Source of the DNA: Paracoccaceae bacterium
GTDB taxonomy: Bacteria > Pseudomonadota > Alphaproteobacteria > Rhodobacterales > Rhodobacteraceae
DNA length: 64,000 nucleotides
Reading direction: 5' to 3'
Assembly: GCA_013373325.1 (NCBI GenBank)
Contig: JABXIA010000120.1
Span: 1-64,000 of the forward strand
Position numbers and translations under genes: made by a program. The stretch's first letter is position 1. Every line of letters starts with the position of its first letter. This document shows positions 35,468 through 45,591 of this stretch, piece by piece. The notes below the pieces were generated by a model, which was not told the DNA's origin, did no database searches, and saw nothing but the letters and a program-made list of their open reading frames with translations.

Positions 35468-35597
35468 GATCGGAGCCATTCTCTTGGCTTGAGCCCTACC
35501 GAGGTTGGCCGCCGCGAATCCCCTTTCCCGGAGGTGGCACCCTGTGCAGCGCGCGAAAGCCGTTGAAGGCGCTGTGGGGACGACTACTGTCGCCAAC

Positions 35598-36197
35598 ATG
35601 ATGAACTGGGATCACATGCGCGTCTTCTTCCGGCGCACCGCGGCGCTTGCCGCTTTTGTCGCGCTGCTCTGGGCGATCCAAGTCGTCAATTGGATCACCG
35701 GCTACGGCCTGAACCCGGCCTTCGGCCTGATCCCCAGGCACGGCAGCGGGTTGGATGGTGTCATCGCTATGCCCCTCCTGCATGGGAGTTTCTCGCACCT
35801 GATGGCCAATACGCCGCCGCTCCTGGTGATGGGTGGGCTGCTGGTGGCAACGACCACGCGAGGCTTGCTGTCGGTGAACGCCGTGGTGATCGGCCTAGGG
35901 GGCGGTCTCGTGTGGTTGTTCGGCGGCTCGGCGATCCATATCGGTGCGTCGGGGCTGATCTTCGGCTGGTTTGGCTTCCTCATCGCGCGCGGTCTTGTGG
36001 ATCGCTCTCCGATCACGCTGGGCGCGGCGCTGGTGGTCGGTGTCCTCTATGGCTCTATTCTCTGGGGCGTTCTTCCGGGCCAACCCGGCGTGTCGTGGGA
36101 GGCGCATCTCTTCGGCGCTATCGCGGGCGCGGGCGCTGCGTTCCTAATCCGAACGCATGTCCATGCGCCGCGCCTCGGCGGCGTCGATCTGAACTGA
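35598..36197 (+). CDS. Rhomboid-family intramembrane serine protease
   Basis: [38 protein letters not shown] (GxSG), [19 protein letters not shown] (catalytic His). Confidence 0.9.
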
Positions 36198-36476
36198 AAC
36201 AGTGCAATCGGGCCTAAGCTGCCGATCGACCTCGTTTGGTGCAGCGTATGCTTCATGATCTTGCCAAGAAAGTGCTCTGAACGGTTGCCGTGACTTCTCG
36301 AAAGATGGAAATGGCCCACGTTGTTGTTCTCTCCTCTCGTAAACAGAGAAGAGGTGGAGAGGACCAGAACTTGCTCGGCAAGTGGGCTCGCAGGTCAGGG
36401 CCAAGGAAAAGTGTCGGATTGCGCCCTAGCAGCTACGCAGTCATAGTGCCACTGAGGGCAGGCGGGAGCAAATAGC

Positions 36477-38453
36477 ATGGACGTTCGAATTCAAACCGGC
36501 TGGGACAACGACCCCGCAGGGCGCATTCGAAACTTATCGCTTGCTCCGAATGCCAAGAACTCACTTTTCCCACTTTTTGAAGCTGTGATGAACTCCATTC
36601 ACGCCGTCGAAGACAGATTTGGCAAGGATAATCTCAGCAAGGGCGAAGTCACAATCGAACTGCACCGCACTGAATCTGGGGAGATGGAAGGCTTTACTAT
36701 TTCTGACAATGGAATTGGCTTTAACGAAAGCAATCTCGAGTCTTTTCGCCGAATGGACTCACGTGCCAAAGAAAAGATTGGCGGAAAAGGCGTAGGGCGC
36801 CTTGTTTGGCTCAAGGTGCTGGACGAGGTGCGTATTCAAAGTGTTTACGATGACGGGTCCATCGGTCGTTCTATTTCTTTTGATTTCAAGGTTTCCAACC
36901 CAACGGACAATCTGACCCTTGCGCCAGCGGATCAAAGCACTCCAGGCTCAATTATTCAGTTGACTCCCTACAAACGTGACTACGCTCTGCACATACCGAA
37001 GAAGGCAAGCACGATCACAAATCGGCTTTTGGCTCATTTCATAAGTTACTTCATCAATATCAGTCATCCAAAAATTACGGTCTGTGATGTTGATGCCGAG
37101 ATAGACCTGTTCGAGGCATTCTCAGAATCAGTTGAGCGCGATGCAGATTATCGGTTCACTTTATCCGCTTCTGGCGGGTCCGAAGATTTTGTCTGCCACT
37201 GTTTTCTGCTTCCCAAAGCAATCTCTGACGACGAAAGAAGCACGAACGCACTTTACCTTGGAGCAAACGGACGTGCTGTAAAACGGTTCGACATGGACGG
37301 GGTGATTGGCCTTAAGGCTATTGATAGTAAATTCGCATTCCTTGGGTATATTGAAAGTGCGGCCCTCGATGAATCTGTGAATGACACAAGAACGGACTTC
37401 TCTTTGTCAGAAGATGAGATTGAGAGCATCGTCGATCAGGCGAAAGAGCGCGTCAAGGAGTTCCTCGCCCCCGAACTCGCTGAGATTCGAGAGAAGCAGA
37501 CAGGCATTGTCAGCGCCCTCCGCATCGAGCATCCTCGTTTCCTTAGTATTCAAGGTACGGATGCTGAAGTCGCGGAAACGCTCCATTACGGCACGAACCG
37601 GAAAGAGGACATATTTGTGGAAATGTCCCGTCAGTCGCTGCGTCAATATGAACGCCGTAAGAATGCTTTCAAACGGTCAATTGAGAAGAAGTTGCCTGAC
37701 GTGGAGGCGAAGGCCAAAGAGTATGTCGCAGAACTCAAGCAAGAGTCGGTGTCGTCGCTTGCTGAATATGTCATGAAGCGCAAGTTGGTTCTCGATGTGT
37801 TCGAAGAGAGCTTGAAATTCAAGCCTAATACAGATCAAGATTCCGAGTATGAGGACGTTCTCCACGACATAATCTGCCCTCTGAAATCCACTTCCTCGGA
37901 TTTGGATTACGACGATCACAATTTATGGATCGTTGACGACCGACTGGCATTCTACTCATATTTCAACTCTGACACCCGCATGGAAAAGCAAGTGTCAGAT
38001 CCCACTCACCCAAAAGATAGGCCAGACGTCTCCATTTTCGACCTTGGCCTTGGCTTTGAAAATGAAGACAAGTCTTCCCCAATCACTATTGTAGAATTCA
38101 AGCGTCCGAAAATCGACAACTACACTTTGGAGAAAAACCCCATCACGCAAGTCCGAAAATATGTTGAAGACATGCGGAAGTCTGGTGAGGCGATCAAGTA
38201 TGACGGGACTCCCATACGCTCAATCGAAGAAACTACGCCGTTCATGTGTCACATCATCGCGGATATAACACCCAAGCTACGTGATGTCATGAAGGCTCTC
38301 GGGAACTTCCACCGAAAGGCGGGTTCAAACACATACTATTCGTGGGACGCGTCCTATTCGATTTTTATCGAGGTCTCGTCTTTCAAAGACGTTCTCGAGT
38401 CCGCTAAGTCACGCAACCGAGCATTCTTCGAACGTATCGGGATCTCAGTATAA
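36477..38453 (+). CDS. GHKL (HSP90/MORC-like) ATPase with C-terminal PD-(D/E)xK-like motif; candidate defence protein
   Basis: N-box FEAVMNSIHAVEDRF, DNGIGF, GGKGVGRLVW; C-terminal RPDVSIFDLGLGF...SPITIVEFKRPK. Confidence 0.8.
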   Translation: MDVRIQTGWDNDPAGRIRNLSLAPNAKNSLFPLFEAVMNSIHAVEDRFGKDNLSKGEVTIELHRTESGEMEGFTISDNGIGFNESNLESFRRMDSRAKEKIGGKGVGRLVWLKVLDEVRIQSVYDDGSIGRSISFDFKVSNPTDNLTLAPADQSTPGSIIQLTPYKRDYALHIPKKASTITNRLLAHFISYFINISHPKITVCDVDAEIDLFEAFSESVERDADYRFTLSASGGSEDFVCHCFLLPKAISDDERSTNALYLGANGRAVKRFDMDGVIGLKAIDSKFAFLGYIESAALDESVNDTRTDFSLSEDEIESIVDQAKERVKEFLAPELAEIREKQTGIVSALRIEHPRFLSIQGTDAEVAETLHYGTNRKEDIFVEMSRQSLRQYERRKNAFKRSIEKKLPDVEAKAKEYVAELKQESVSSLAEYVMKRKLVLDVFEESLKFKPNTDQDSEYEDVLHDIICPLKSTSSDLDYDDHNLWIVDDRLAFYSYFNSDTRMEKQVSDPTHPKDRPDVSIFDLGLGFENEDKSSPITIVEFKRPKIDNYTLEKNPITQVRKYVEDMRKSGEAIKYDGTPIRSIEETTPFMCHIIADITPKLRDVMKALGNFHRKAGSNTYYSWDASYSIFIEVSSFKDVLESAKSRNRAFFERIGISV

Positions 38454-38657
38454 TCAAGTTTGCTTCCGCGTTTCTCTGCCACTTTAACTAATACGCAGGG
38501 AACCACCACTTTCCACCCTTCCTTGCGGAACGTAGCGCCAACCCATTCCTCATAAAGAAGGGCGCACGGGTCGCTGTGACTGACCTGCAACGCAGCTTTT
38601 CTGAACCGGCCTTTTGGGACATCGTGCGGCAATGTCGGATAGCAGGAAGTCGGCGGG

Positions 38658-39638
38658 TCAGTTCCAGATGGCCTCGTACTCCCAGCCCTCCGGGAACCCG
38701 GCTGTCTGCGGACGAATTTCGTAAGGGAGGTCTTGGGTCAAGATCTTGTCGCGAAGACGGATGTGCCACCTGGTGCGCGGATAATACTGCCGCAGCATGA
38801 AGATCATGATGACGATCGCGCTGTAAATCTTTTTCGTGGGCGCATCGTCCCCCATCCTGGGCTGGCGGAGGTGGTCGAGCTGTCCAAATGTCGTTTTTGG
38901 GGGAACCCCAGGGCTGTTAACCAAGGGCTTGTTCCACGTTCGGGCGTGATGTGCGCAGCTGTTGCGGACGTCATTGAGCGCTGTGATCCATGAAGCGAAT
39001 GTCTTCATGGGGAGGTCCGGGTGAATACGCGCCGCGATTGCCATTTTGTTTTTGTCGGACAGGTGGGCGATAATGTGGGTCAGGTTGCCCCAGGTCCATG
39101 TCCCAGCCTCGATCCAAATCGGTGGAGGACCAAAGTACTTTAGTGAGAAGTGCTTCGCGAAGTCCTCTTTAGAGCTTCTGAAGTGCTGATCCAGTCCGGC
39201 TATGAAGAGCTCGAGAGGCGTGCTGCCATCTTCGCCCTTTTCGCTGAAGCGATCCTTGTATGAGCGTCTGTCGCGATGCGCATGTGGTCCCAGCTCCCCA
39301 AGGACTTCAATCATCGCGGTTCTAACCGCGATCTCGATGCGCTCAATCGCGTCCAGAAGCTCGATGCGCAAGGTTTTGTCGAAGAGATAGAAGTTGATAG
39401 CCTGATCGAAGGACGTACCCTCTTTGAACTTGTCGCATCGAACCTTCTGCTCCGTCTCGCCGTCTGGAGTTGGGATCGGGCAGAAGTCACGATAAGGATA
39501 CCCAAACGCGCTGAGTCGGTAGTATCCGATGCGGTGCAGGGAGCGCTCGGCATGGCCTCGGTCAGGGATTTCCATACCCCTCATCAACATGATGTCGATG
39601 CATTCATCGATCGACTTGTGCTGCTTGAGGTACTTCAA
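38658..39638 (-). CDS. Abi_2 (AbiD/AbiF-like) abortive infection protein with HEPN RX4H motif
   Basis: MKYLKQHKSIDECIDIMLMRGMEIPDRGHAERSLHRIGYYRLSAFGYPYRD...TALNDVRNSCAHHARTWNKPL. Confidence 0.9.
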   Translation of the reverse strand: MKYLKQHKSIDECIDIMLMRGMEIPDRGHAERSLHRIGYYRLSAFGYPYRDFCPIPTPDGETEQKVRCDKFKEGTSFDQAINFYLFDKTLRIELLDAIERIEIAVRTAMIEVLGELGPHAHRDRRSYKDRFSEKGEDGSTPLELFIAGLDQHFRSSKEDFAKHFSLKYFGPPPIWIEAGTWTWGNLTHIIAHLSDKNKMAIAARIHPDLPMKTFASWITALNDVRNSCAHHARTWNKPLVNSPGVPPKTTFGQLDHLRQPRMGDDAPTKKIYSAIVIMIFMLRQYYPRTRWHIRLRDKILTQDLPYEIRPQTAGFPEGWEYEAIWN

Positions 39639-40125
39639 TGTTGATACGGCGATGTCCAGAAATTAGAAGACCGGGCTGTAACGAGGCGACTGAGGCCAGG
39701 TCAGGGAGCACCGGTCATAAGGCAATAATGTATAATAGTGTCCGCGCTGACGATGTCAACATTGTAGACGGGGCACCGAACGGTGAGGCAACGCGGGATG
39801 TCAGTTCGGTGCGCCGAGACTTGATCATGGCTGCGCTTTGCGGCCATTGGAGCCAATTACAGCGAACTTCCGCTACCCGCCCATTACATCGAATGCTTGG
39901 ACAAGTAATCCGTATAGTCGGTAGCGGCGTCGCCAGCACATCAACCCTGGCCAGAGCCTTGCGGCCTCCCCAGCTCGGCTTCGCGTGTCGCAGGGGAGAA
40001 CGGCCCTTCGGTCCGTCGCGCATTCGGCCATGCGGCCTCACCGCGGCGTTGCGCCCGGCATCCCGGTTTGCCCGCCTCGCGAGCACGTCCCTCCCCGGTC
40101 GCTCCGCCGGATTGCGCTCTGGTCT

Positions 40126-40211: not shown

Positions 40212-40498
40212 CTACCGTCAAAACACACACACATGAGCGCGGAAGCATATCCTCCGGATGGCCCCCAAATCAGCCCGCGTCAAGGATCGCAAAACTTTTC
40301 GGCGAGGGCGGAGCCGGTGGCGCGGGGCGGTCCCGTGCGCAAGCGCGCGCAAGTGTCGGGTGCCGCGCGCGGAAAACTTTTGCGCCCGGCAAGCCGGCGG
40401 CTACGCCGTCCCTGACCCGGGCAGATTCGGAAACCAGGCATTCGGCCATGCCCCCACACTCACGTGGTGGCCTTGGAACCGAACACTGGAGACCAGAC

Positions 40499-41428
40499 AT
40501 GGCTTACGACACTGCAAACACCTACGAGACCATCGAACTTTTCGGACTGACTGAAAAGGACGCGCAGCTGCCGATCCCGGAGGATCACGTTCTGACCGAC
40601 CACATCGTCCGCGAGAGCTTCGAGGCTTTGCTCGGCCAGCTGCGCGGGACCGGGCTTGAAGCAGAAATCGAACCGCTGGCCCATGGGCTCGCGACGATCC
40701 TGCAGCGCCGCAAGGTGGCACTCGGCAAGGAGGTCGACCGCACCGCCGACAAGATCGGCGCGCTGGCAAAATCCCACGACGGATCGGAAATCGCCGAGAC
40801 CGCGCTCGAAGAGGCGCAGGCGCGCTTTGTGCAACTGCGCGAGATTGTGAGCGCCATCGAGGTGATGAGCGAGGCGGCGGCGGAATGCTACGAGATCGAG
40901 ACGGGCCACGCCTACATCCCGGCAGCCGGATCGCGCGCAAGCGTCCGGGCGAAAGAGACCGGGGCGGTCTTCGAGGCGCGGCAGCTGCTGGAGCAGCACG
41001 ACCGCGAGACTGCCGAGAAGTCGAAAGTCGAGGGGGTGCCCCTGATCGTCTCAGGCGCCACCGACTGGACCGATGTTGATGTGATCTTCAACACGCTCGA
41101 CAAGGTTCGCGAACGGATCAAGCAGAACCGCAACCAGGAGATCTTCCTCTGCCACAAGGGTGGCAAGCACGGGGCGGAGATGATTGCGGCCCGGTGGGCC
41201 CGGGCACGCGGGGTCGCGCAGGCGCGCTTCGATCCGCGCTGGTCCGCGCACGGGCGGGCGGCACCGTTCAAGTGCAACGACGAAATGCTGGACGACAAGT
41301 TCGCGGCGACGGGGGTTGTACTCTTCGGCGGCAACGGGGTCGCGCTGAACCTCGGGCAGAAGGCGGAAGCGAAAGGTCTGACGGTCATGCGGGTTGCGGA
41401 CCCGGCGAAGAAGGCTGCGCAGGATTGA
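40499..41428 (+). CDS. DUF2493 (YspA/SLOG-type) protein
   Basis: IVSGATDWTDVDVIFNTLDKVRERI...IFLCHKGGKHGAEMIAARWARARGVAQARFDPRWSAHGRAAPFKCNDEML. Confidence 0.85.
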   Translation: MAYDTANTYETIELFGLTEKDAQLPIPEDHVLTDHIVRESFEALLGQLRGTGLEAEIEPLAHGLATILQRRKVALGKEVDRTADKIGALAKSHDGSEIAETALEEAQARFVQLREIVSAIEVMSEAAAECYEIETGHAYIPAAGSRASVRAKETGAVFEARQLLEQHDRETAEKSKVEGVPLIVSGATDWTDVDVIFNTLDKVRERIKQNRNQEIFLCHKGGKHGAEMIAARWARARGVAQARFDPRWSAHGRAAPFKCNDEMLDDKFAATGVVLFGGNGVALNLGQKAEAKGLTVMRVADPAKKAAQD

Positions 41429-42689: not shown

Positions 42690-43271
42690 ATGTCGCGCTC
42701 AAAACGTCTCACAGATGCGGACCGCATGGAGATCGTTCGCGAAGCTGCGGAAGGCGTTTCCACTTCAGTGCTGGCGGAACGGTTTGGCGTTTCGGTGCGG
42801 GCGATCCAGTACACGCTCAAAGCCGATGCCGAGCGCCAGACGGATGCCGCAATTCCGGTCTCAGCGGTCAGTGTGAAGGTCACGGCTGCGGAGCTTGAGG
42901 CGCTCGACGCGGTGCTGGCGAAGGCGGGGATCGAAAGCCGGGCCGAGGGGCTGCGGCGGCTCATTCAGGCGGCAGGCGGGGTGTTCGTTCCGGACGCGCA
43001 GATGGCAGCTGAGATGGCGCGCTACCGCGCCTCGCTGCACGAGGTCGGCAATGGGGTCGCGCAGATCGCCAAACAGATGACGCAGGCCAATCGGCAAGGG
43101 CAGGGGGCCGGCTCGGAGTTCACCGAATTGCGCCTCGCACAGATGCGCGGGCTGGCGCGGTTCATCCTGGATTCCGCTGACGAGATCGACCTGCTCCTGC
43201 GCCGCCGTCGGGATGCGATGCAGCTGCAGGCCACGGCCGCGCTGAGGGAGTTTGCGCATGCAGCTGAATGA
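42690..43271 (+). CDS. MobC-like relaxosome accessory protein with HTH
   Basis: HTH VLAERFGVSVRAIQYTL; MobC-like RASLHEVGNGVAQIAKQMTQANRQG; overlaps the relaxase gene. Confidence 0.75.
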   Translation: MSRSKRLTDADRMEIVREAAEGVSTSVLAERFGVSVRAIQYTLKADAERQTDAAIPVSAVSVKVTAAELEALDAVLAKAGIESRAEGLRRLIQAAGGVFVPDAQMAAEMARYRASLHEVGNGVAQIAKQMTQANRQGQGAGSEFTELRLAQMRGLARFILDSADEIDLLLRRRRDAMQLQATAALREFAHAAE

Positions 43272-45591
43272 TGCCGTCCATGCCGTCACGGGCGAGGTGT
43301 TTCGGGATGGCTGGAGCCGCGTCCGGGGCTCAATGCAGGGGCTGCACGTGGCCAAGCAGACCCAGCTTGTGCGCGCGGCAGCAGGCCACCGGCCAGCGGT
43401 CTTCAAGGCGATCCGGGGCGGGGGAACGCATACCAAATCGCAGCTCGCAAACCAGCTCGATTACCTCACCACCAAGTCCACCCATATCGTGGACAGTAGC
43501 GGGTTCTTGGATGGCAAGACGAAGCTCGAGGCGGGTGACATCAAGGATCTGACCGAGCGCTTTGCCAAGCGGTGGGATGCGGGCTTCAAGCCCAAGCTTG
43601 GGCAGACCACCCACATGCTCATGTCCTTCCCCATCGGCACGCGCGGGGAGGATGTGCGCGACATCGCGACGGATGTGGCCGAGCGGTTCTTCCAGACCGA
43701 CGCGGGGCATTTCGACTACATCATCGCGGTGCATGAGGACCGCGATCACCCGCATGCGCATTTGGTGCTGAACCGCCGCTCGCAGGAAGGCGAGTTCTTC
43801 TTTCTGGGGCGCAACCACCGCTTCAACTATGACGACTTCCGCCTCGCCATGGTCGAGGAGGCCGAGAAGTATGGTGTACGGCTGGAGGCCACGCGGCGGG
43901 TGGATCGCGGCGTCGTGCATTACCCAGCCCGCACCAGCGAGGTTTACGCCGCGAAAGACGAGGGCCGCGCGCCCCGCGAGCGCGAACGCGTGGGGGCCGA
44001 CTTGACCCGGACGCTGGCGGAGATCGCCAACACCAGAACCGTCTACCATTCGCTTGCCGCGGAGGCTTCGCGTGAAGCCCGCGAGGATATTGCCGCGGCA
44101 CTCTTCCGCGCGGGCGAGGTGCTGGCGCATGGCGGGCAGGTGGACCGAACAGGAGATGTGTATATGGCCGAGGATCAAAGCTTCGAGGATCTCAGAAGCC
44201 TCTATGCGGAAAAGCTCGCGCGGGTGCAGGGCATGATCGCCGAGAAGTCTGACGCGGAACGTCCCGTGCTGGAAAAACGCCTCATCGAGATCCAGACGCA
44301 GGTCCAGCACATGCAGCCTCTCGGTTTGCGATCGAGCACGCTGTCTGAGGTGCCGTCGGAGGGCGGGGTCTACTCAGAGGCGAATATCGACACCAACCAG
44401 CTAGAACGTCTTGCCGAGCCAGGCCTGCGCTCACGGATCGACGCGGCCCTGCGCGGCACGGGGATCAGCACATCCGAAGTGGTGGCCCGGATCGAGACCG
44501 GGGCCTCGAGCGCCGCGCTGGAGCATCAATGGATCGCAGATGATCTCTCCAAGGTGGCCGAGGCGCGCGATCTGAACCTCGAACGCCGCGCCGATCTGGA
44601 ACAGGCGCGCGACATTCTCAACGATGTGCATGTCACGCTCGGCACGCTCTTGGAACGGGAGAACGTGCTGCGCCGGGATGGCGTCATGGAAGCGGAACCG
44701 GTCAGCGAGCGGTTCCATTATCACCGGGACGCGGTGCGGGCGATGGAAGGGACAATCCGTCAGGAGATGCGCGCAGACGGCCTGACAGCGCAGCAGATCG
44801 AGGACCGGGATTGGGAGGTTGTATCGCGAGCGGAGCGCCGGATCGAGACGGAGCAGCGCGCGTATCTCGAAGCACACCCGGACCTGCTCGCACGCCCCGG
44901 CGATGTGATCGACCGGTCTGAACCCTACAGGGAGACCATCACCGATGCGGCCCGCGCCAGCGAGATCACCCGCGAGGTCGACCGGATCATGGAGGGACGC
45001 GACGTCCGCACGCCCGTTGCATATGCTGTCACGGATGACTTGCGCGCGCGCTATCCGGACATGCCGTCCCATCTCGCCCGTGGGCTCGGCGCGACCTATG
45101 CGGCCGTCGTCGAGATACGCGACACGGAGGTCATCAATCAGGTCCGCCGCGAAACCGAGATGCGCGAGGGGCTTGGGGTTGGCACGCGCGACGCACTCCT
45201 CGCAGCCCGCGGTGAAACTGCGCCGCAGTCTGACCGTACCGACCGCCTCGCAGACGAGATTGCGCGTGTTCTGGACCATGAGCGGGCGGGGGAGTTGTCC
45301 GCGCCTTTCGAGACCGAGGCGGAGCGGGACGCTTTCCGAACCGAGATCGCGCGGGTGCTGGATGACCGTCAACTTGAGCGGCTCACATCCGGCGATGCCG
45401 ATGCGCTGGACAAGGTTCTCGAGGACCGCCTCGACCGGCTCTATGTCGCCAAGGTCTACCTGCAATCCGATGCCGCGACGGCCAACACGGAGGCCCTGCG
45501 CCAGGTGGTCGATGATCTTGCCGACACCGAATATGAAAAACACCGCGCCACAGACGTGGATGGCGAGACCGAGCGGGGACAGGTCCATTGA
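43258..45591 (+). CDS. VirD2-type relaxase
   Basis: HxDxxHPHxH-type motif in YIIAVHEDRDHPHAHLVLNRRSQEGEFFFLGRNHRFNYDDFRLAMVEEAEKYGV. Confidence 0.9.
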   Translation: MQLNDAVHAVTGEVFRDGWSRVRGSMQGLHVAKQTQLVRAAAGHRPAVFKAIRGGGTHTKSQLANQLDYLTTKSTHIVDSSGFLDGKTKLEAGDIKDLTERFAKRWDAGFKPKLGQTTHMLMSFPIGTRGEDVRDIATDVAERFFQTDAGHFDYIIAVHEDRDHPHAHLVLNRRSQEGEFFFLGRNHRFNYDDFRLAMVEEAEKYGVRLEATRRVDRGVVHYPARTSEVYAAKDEGRAPRERERVGADLTRTLAEIANTRTVYHSLAAEASREAREDIAAALFRAGEVLAHGGQVDRTGDVYMAEDQSFEDLRSLYAEKLARVQGMIAEKSDAERPVLEKRLIEIQTQVQHMQPLGLRSSTLSEVPSEGGVYSEANIDTNQLERLAEPGLRSRIDAALRGTGISTSEVVARIETGASSAALEHQWIADDLSKVAEARDLNLERRADLEQARDILNDVHVTLGTLLERENVLRRDGVMEAEPVSERFHYHRDAVRAMEGTIRQEMRADGLTAQQIEDRDWEVVSRAERRIETEQRAYLEAHPDLLARPGDVIDRSEPYRETITDAARASEITREVDRIMEGRDVRTPVAYAVTDDLRARYPDMPSHLARGLGATYAAVVEIRDTEVINQVRRETEMREGLGVGTRDALLAARGETAPQSDRTDRLADEIARVLDHERAGELSAPFETEAERDAFRTEIARVLDDRQLERLTSGDADALDKVLEDRLDRLYVAKVYLQSDAATANTEALRQVVDDLADTEYEKHRATDVDGETERGQVH

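Follow-up and report, generated by a model that had tools for sequence, protein, structure and literature searches.

The architecture that concerns us here was described by Iyer, Abhiman and Aravind (2008) under the name paraMORC3, in which a GHKL ATPase and an S5 domain are followed by a C-terminal nuclease with E-D-ExK residues; a subset of paraMORC3 members are standalone genes, and the group occurs sporadically in proteobacteria, bacteroidetes and archaea (PMC2292703). Adams et al. (2025) reported that VcSduA, a protein from VSP-II of Vibrio cholerae WASA combining a GHKL domain with a DUF4263 nuclease, protects against phage, and that this protection is lost in E27A and in K557A; host viability is apparently kept, and protection is robust at every MOI tested, a behaviour that fits direct restriction (PMC12137116). 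An initial annotation of the locus analysed here had proposed a candidate antiphage effector that it did not recognise as a named system. We find instead that the gene encodes a protein with the paraMORC3 architecture, and that it is a new, divergent member of the already described paraMORC3/VcSduA-type family.

The window, by which we mean the whole 64,000-nucleotide stretch of DNA that was analysed, carries this gene as an intact open reading frame with an ATG start and 658 codons for amino acids (Table 1). The motifs from which a GHKL ATPase had been proposed lie where they were said to lie (N-box, E35/N39; DNGIGF, residues 77-82; GGKGVGR, 102-108), and the protein matches Pfam HATPase_c above the cut-off (E 2.9e-6). 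Across a family alignment of 47 sequences, which are 23-65% identical to the query, E35, N39, D77, G79, G81, G105, G107 and R108 are invariant. The postulated PD-(D/E)xK core at the other end of the protein is also complete, with E459, the P516-D517 pair held within RPDV, E540-x-K542 within IVEFKRP (538-544), and Q558; E459, D517, E540 and K542 are invariant in the same alignment and Q558 is nearly so. Two arginines, R266 and R305, are conserved in the S5/transducer-like region. When Pfam, NCBIfam, PADLOC, PHROGs and PDB sequences were searched with HMMER, no named family beyond HATPase emerged, the only Pfam match of the nuclease end being HSDR_N_2, below threshold (E 0.1); a PADLOC match to TmtA (E 0.0028) was rejected as an identity because it is confined to the ATPase part.

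Table 1. Features of the GHKL-nuclease gene and of its plasmid surroundings, in window coordinates.
Feature	Coordinates	Strand	Evidence
GHKL ATPase - PD-(D/E)xK nuclease gene, paraMORC3/VcSduA-like	36477..38453	+	ORF, family alignment, models
GHKL ATP-binding domain, residues ~31-137	36567..36887	+	Pfam HATPase_c, invariant residues
S5/transducer-like region, residues ~199-305	37071..37391	+	Foldseek, weak MLH1 profile match, conservation
Long helical stalk, residues ~312-446	37410..37814	+	AlphaFold2 secondary structure
PD-(D/E)xK (Shedu-like) nuclease domain, residues ~455-658	37839..38450	+	Model, Foldseek, hhalign
Variable cargo slot	36198..39880	.	Junctions vs sister plasmids
Rhomboid protease gene, conserved left flank	35505..36197	+	Pfam Rhomboid 6.4e-19
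AbiD/Abi_2 gene, second cargo gene, convergent	38658..39638	-	PADLOC AbiD 1.2e-51, Pfam Abi_2 1.9e-44
DUF2493 (YspA/SLOG) gene, conserved right flank	40448..41428	+	Pfam YAcAr 1.9e-20
MobA/VirD2-type relaxase of carrier plasmid	43252..45591	+	Pfam Relaxase 2.5e-13

Comparison with the homologue of Paracoccus sp. IB05 gave dN/dS values of 0.10 for the N-terminal and 0.04 for the C-terminal part, and both halves are therefore under purifying selection. The Paracoccus homologue itself (L006, L008) is broken in two around residue 280, and ~32 kb of the same contig separate the pieces, a pattern that suggests a large insertion. An apparent 1163-aa fusion in Pseudogemmobacter (L007) was discarded as the product of a run of masked bases.

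An AlphaFold2 model of the whole protein (mean pLDDT 87) resolves a GHKL domain, an S5-like domain, a long helical stalk and a C-terminal alpha/beta domain. Foldseek matched the N-terminal part to TRAP1/Hsp90, SMCHD1, GyrB and MLH1/MutL, with the Hsp90/TRAP1, GyrB and MLH1 matches covering GHKL and S5 together (~330-430 columns); a profile match to the S5 region of MLH1 (214-335) is weak (E 0.066). Since GHKL matches swamped the search with the full model, the C-terminal 254 residues were modelled separately (pLDDT 88), and the nine top-ranked matches of this model are to NucC, the McrBC complex and EcoO109I, the second presumably reflecting its McrC nuclease. Their scores are modest (the best, to NucC, at E 5e-3 and probability 0.77), and SduA structures are absent from the top 50. 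A nuclease fold in the C-terminus, as the initial annotation had anticipated, is thus predicted by the model and its structural matches, and also by its kinship to Shedu.

This kinship was seen by profile-profile comparison. With hhalign, the C-terminus matches a profile of 12 Shedu-domain proteins at 96.3% (E 1.7e-9, 173 columns), against at most 0.9% for 20 column-shuffled query profiles, and an earlier run against 6 Shedu proteins had reached 78% (E 1.9e-5); among other PD-(D/E)xK families, HSDR_N_2 reaches 47.6% over 62 columns and YhcG_C 0.6%. Because the Shedu match so exceeds both the shuffled controls and the other families, the C-terminal nuclease is, as judged from its sequence profile, a distant but specific Shedu relative. 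The distance is apparent in PF14082 (SduA_C/DUF4263), for which HMMER gave no match at E 1 or below among 15 family members (0/15); a canonical Shedu neighbour in V. fluvialis matches the same model at 1.3e-25.

The gene had also been described as AT-richer than its neighbours and placed in an accessory spot beside an Abi gene, and each of these observations is upheld. Its GC content is 48.0%, against 65.4% for the rhomboid, 64.8% for the DUF2493 and 64.9% for the relaxase gene. BLAST against sister plasmids confines the accessory spot to about 36198-39881, with junctions at 36198-36218, just past the rhomboid stop codon, and at 39860-39881 in 10 of 12 plasmids; in L151 and L152 the replacement extends to the rhomboid gene, and in L142 the left flank is broken by an IS21 element. 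The backbone around the gene is matched in 187 plasmid records (the left flank in 48, the right flank in 160), and a sister plasmid was typed as MOBP, MPF_T. In the window the slot is occupied by two genes only, those for the GHKL-nuclease and for AbiD.

All 12 sister plasmids sampled carry a slot cargo different from that of the window, in most cases defence genes. The cargo comprises an IetA-type AAA ATPase with an S8 peptidase (L141; a similar pair by annotation in L142), CBASS (L143), TIR proteins (L144, annotation), SIR2-HerA (L145), metal-resistance-like genes (L146, annotation), PD-Lambda-4 (L147), Mokosh/PLD-like genes (L148), a type VI retron RT with a TIR protein (L149), a Lamassu-like SMC ATPase (L150), Tmn (L151), and TIR with ImmA/IrrE (L152, annotation). 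PADLOC, applied to one or two proteins each from L141, L143, L145 and L147-L151, recognises defence proteins in the slot of these 8 of the 12; cargo outside this set was read from record annotation. The slot, flanked by the rhomboid gene and the DUF2493 gene, is clearly a defence hotspot of roseobacter conjugative plasmids, of which one targeted literature search found no published description; within its sharp boundaries, unnamed cargo genes can be read as candidate anti-phage systems. A 1281-aa "hypothetical protein" in the slot of a Phaeobacter piscinae plasmid (L147:1504-5349) is a full-length match to PADLOC PD-Lambda-4_A. Elsewhere on these plasmids, SAVED-domain (CBASS-like) genes follow the VirD4 gene at the right ends of L146 and L149, and a restriction endonuclease follows it in Thioclava (L015); the region after the VirD4 gene is perhaps a second cargo spot.

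Near relatives, whose proteins are 99.5-100% identical to the query, occur on plasmids and contigs of roseobacters. Remote relatives, nearly full length and mostly 23-36% identical, come from Agrobacterium Ti plasmids, Rhodococcus, Acinetobacter, Vibrio, Spirosoma and a methanogenic archaeon, as well as from one deposited phage and 50 IMG/VR loci. Strong matches are sporadic, with roughly 10 among the 399 phylum genomes. The GHKL-S5 fold is common to MutL, as would befit a MutL-like DNA repair or housekeeping GHKL enzyme that had reached a plasmid by chance, yet so scattered an occurrence, on plasmids, in phages and in an archaeon, together with the exchange of the gene for defence systems in the slot, makes a role of this kind scarcely credible. 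Homologues were found in 55 plasmid records, 28 of them conjugative plasmids, and the target might accordingly be competing plasmids or DNA in conjugal transfer instead of phage, through plasmid competition or entry exclusion; we regard this as distinctly improbable, since the family is also present in a temperate phage and in many viral or prophage contigs, and the remaining slot cargo is anti-phage. The temperate phage, vB_RanS_PJN03, carries its homologue (L016:2485-4509) beside the integrase. In the phage record the gene is labelled N-acetylmuramoyl-L-alanine amidase, probably a misannotation.

Several homologues sit among recognisable defence genes. The Acinetobacter homologue adjoins CBASS, that of Celeribacter pP73C overlaps the gene of an Eco57I-type RM protein by 4 bp, that of V. 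fluvialis immediately follows a canonical Shedu gene within a type I RM cluster, and others are near type I RM and LlaJI RM. When near and far neighbours were compared across loci from IMG/VR and from genomes, defence genes turned up in both sets and the comparison did not tell them apart; the near neighbours included seven S24-type proteins, which are expected beside prophage repressors. On the V. fluvialis plasmid (L019:8601-11995) the canonical Shedu gene runs 4 bp into the beginning of the homologue, and the two genes are a possible paired system; the V. fluvialis homologue has no DNA match among E. coli genomes. A second Shedu/GHKL neighbourhood lies at L125:760-3530 (longer stretch: L153), where a canonical Shedu gene converges on a member of a different GHKL-nuclease family. 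A separate, related family of GHKL-nucleases (L082, L083, L084, L115), of ~700 aa and marked by an HD(I/V)W(I/L) motif and an ExK lysine near 596-608, has no name in the libraries searched.

Taken together, these analyses make a single-protein phage-restriction enzyme, of the paraMORC3/VcSduA type, the likely product of the gene. This reading is favoured because both active sites are invariant in 47 homologues, because the models, their Foldseek matches and the Shedu match agree with it, because VcSduA, of the same layout, restricts phage, with its E27/K557 pair recurring in two family members, and because the slot holds defence systems in sister plasmids and homologues adjoin CBASS, Shedu and RM. 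Counted against it are the low identity of the query to the VcSduA-like branch (given below), the failure to detect PF14082, the lack of SduA among the top Foldseek matches, and the presence of defence genes in near and far neighbour sets alike. In the mechanism we propose, two copies of the protein would dimerise, and their GHKL/S5 parts and helical stalks would shut on ATP binding to form a clamp of the kind found in MutL, Hsp90 and MORC. This clamp would detect a feature of incoming DNA, for example free ends or unusual structures, and such detection would license cleavage of the DNA by the C-terminal PD-(D/E)xK domains. Action would be directly on the phage rather than by host killing, as reported for VcSduA, and the plasmid would bear the gene as exchangeable anti-phage cargo alongside an Abi gene that works independently of it.

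The choice of NucC, the suicide nuclease of CBASS, as best structural match of the C-terminus (weak, by the scores given above) raises the alternative of an abortive-infection effector, in which the GHKL part senses infection and frees the nuclease against host DNA or RNA, so that the cell halts; that the slot partner is an Abi gene, and that abortive systems such as CBASS occupy the slot elsewhere, point the same way. We think this unlikely. The Shedu profile match is strong and specific, VcSduA protects at all MOIs tested in the manner of direct restriction (PMC12137116), and the Abi gene is convergent on the opposite strand, so the two cargo genes are not one operon.

The query shares the GHKL-S5 ATPase module, by structure, with MutL, MORC and Hsp90, which differ in having no Shedu-like nuclease and in their other cellular roles. 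Canonical Shedu (SduA, PF14082) has a related nuclease domain, as the profile-profile match indicates, but lacks the GHKL domain, and its defining model goes undetected by HMMER in the GHKL-nuclease family. Measured against the published architecture, the query has every element of paraMORC3: the GHKL domain, its ATP-binding motifs intact, then S5, and at the C-terminus a nuclease that bears the E-D-ExK residues. The closest parallel is VcSduA, likewise a single gene with an N-terminal GHKL domain, a clamp-like middle and a C-terminal Shedu-related PD-(D/E)xK nuclease. The N-box glutamate and ExK lysine fall exactly at E27/K557 in family members L031 and L043, at E27/K556 in V. fluvialis and at E35/K542 in the query, and from layout and residue numbers, as distinct from sequence alignment, we infer that VcSduA belongs to the query's family, its closest kin being, as it looks, the gammaproteobacterial V. 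fluvialis/Acinetobacter branch. The L082-L084/L115 and L125/L154/L155 families were both set aside as homes for VcSduA on account of their poorer residue-spacing fit, catalytic spacing in these two other GHKL-nuclease families being 572-577 and 503-506.

The query differs from VcSduA in the distance between its catalytic sites (507 residues against 530), in its place in another branch, ~30% identical to that of V. fluvialis and Acinetobacter, and in its residence on a roseobacter plasmid. There is a small chance that this alphaproteobacterial branch is functionally distinct, with another trigger or with RNA or host DNA as its target, in which case it would form a GHKL-clamp nuclease system of its own and not the counterpart of VcSduA. 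The query puts a divergent branch of a GHKL-nuclease defence family, itself validated only recently, on conjugative plasmids of marine bacteria, and its protein offers a tractable single-gene case for studying how a GHKL clamp may control a Shedu-type nuclease.
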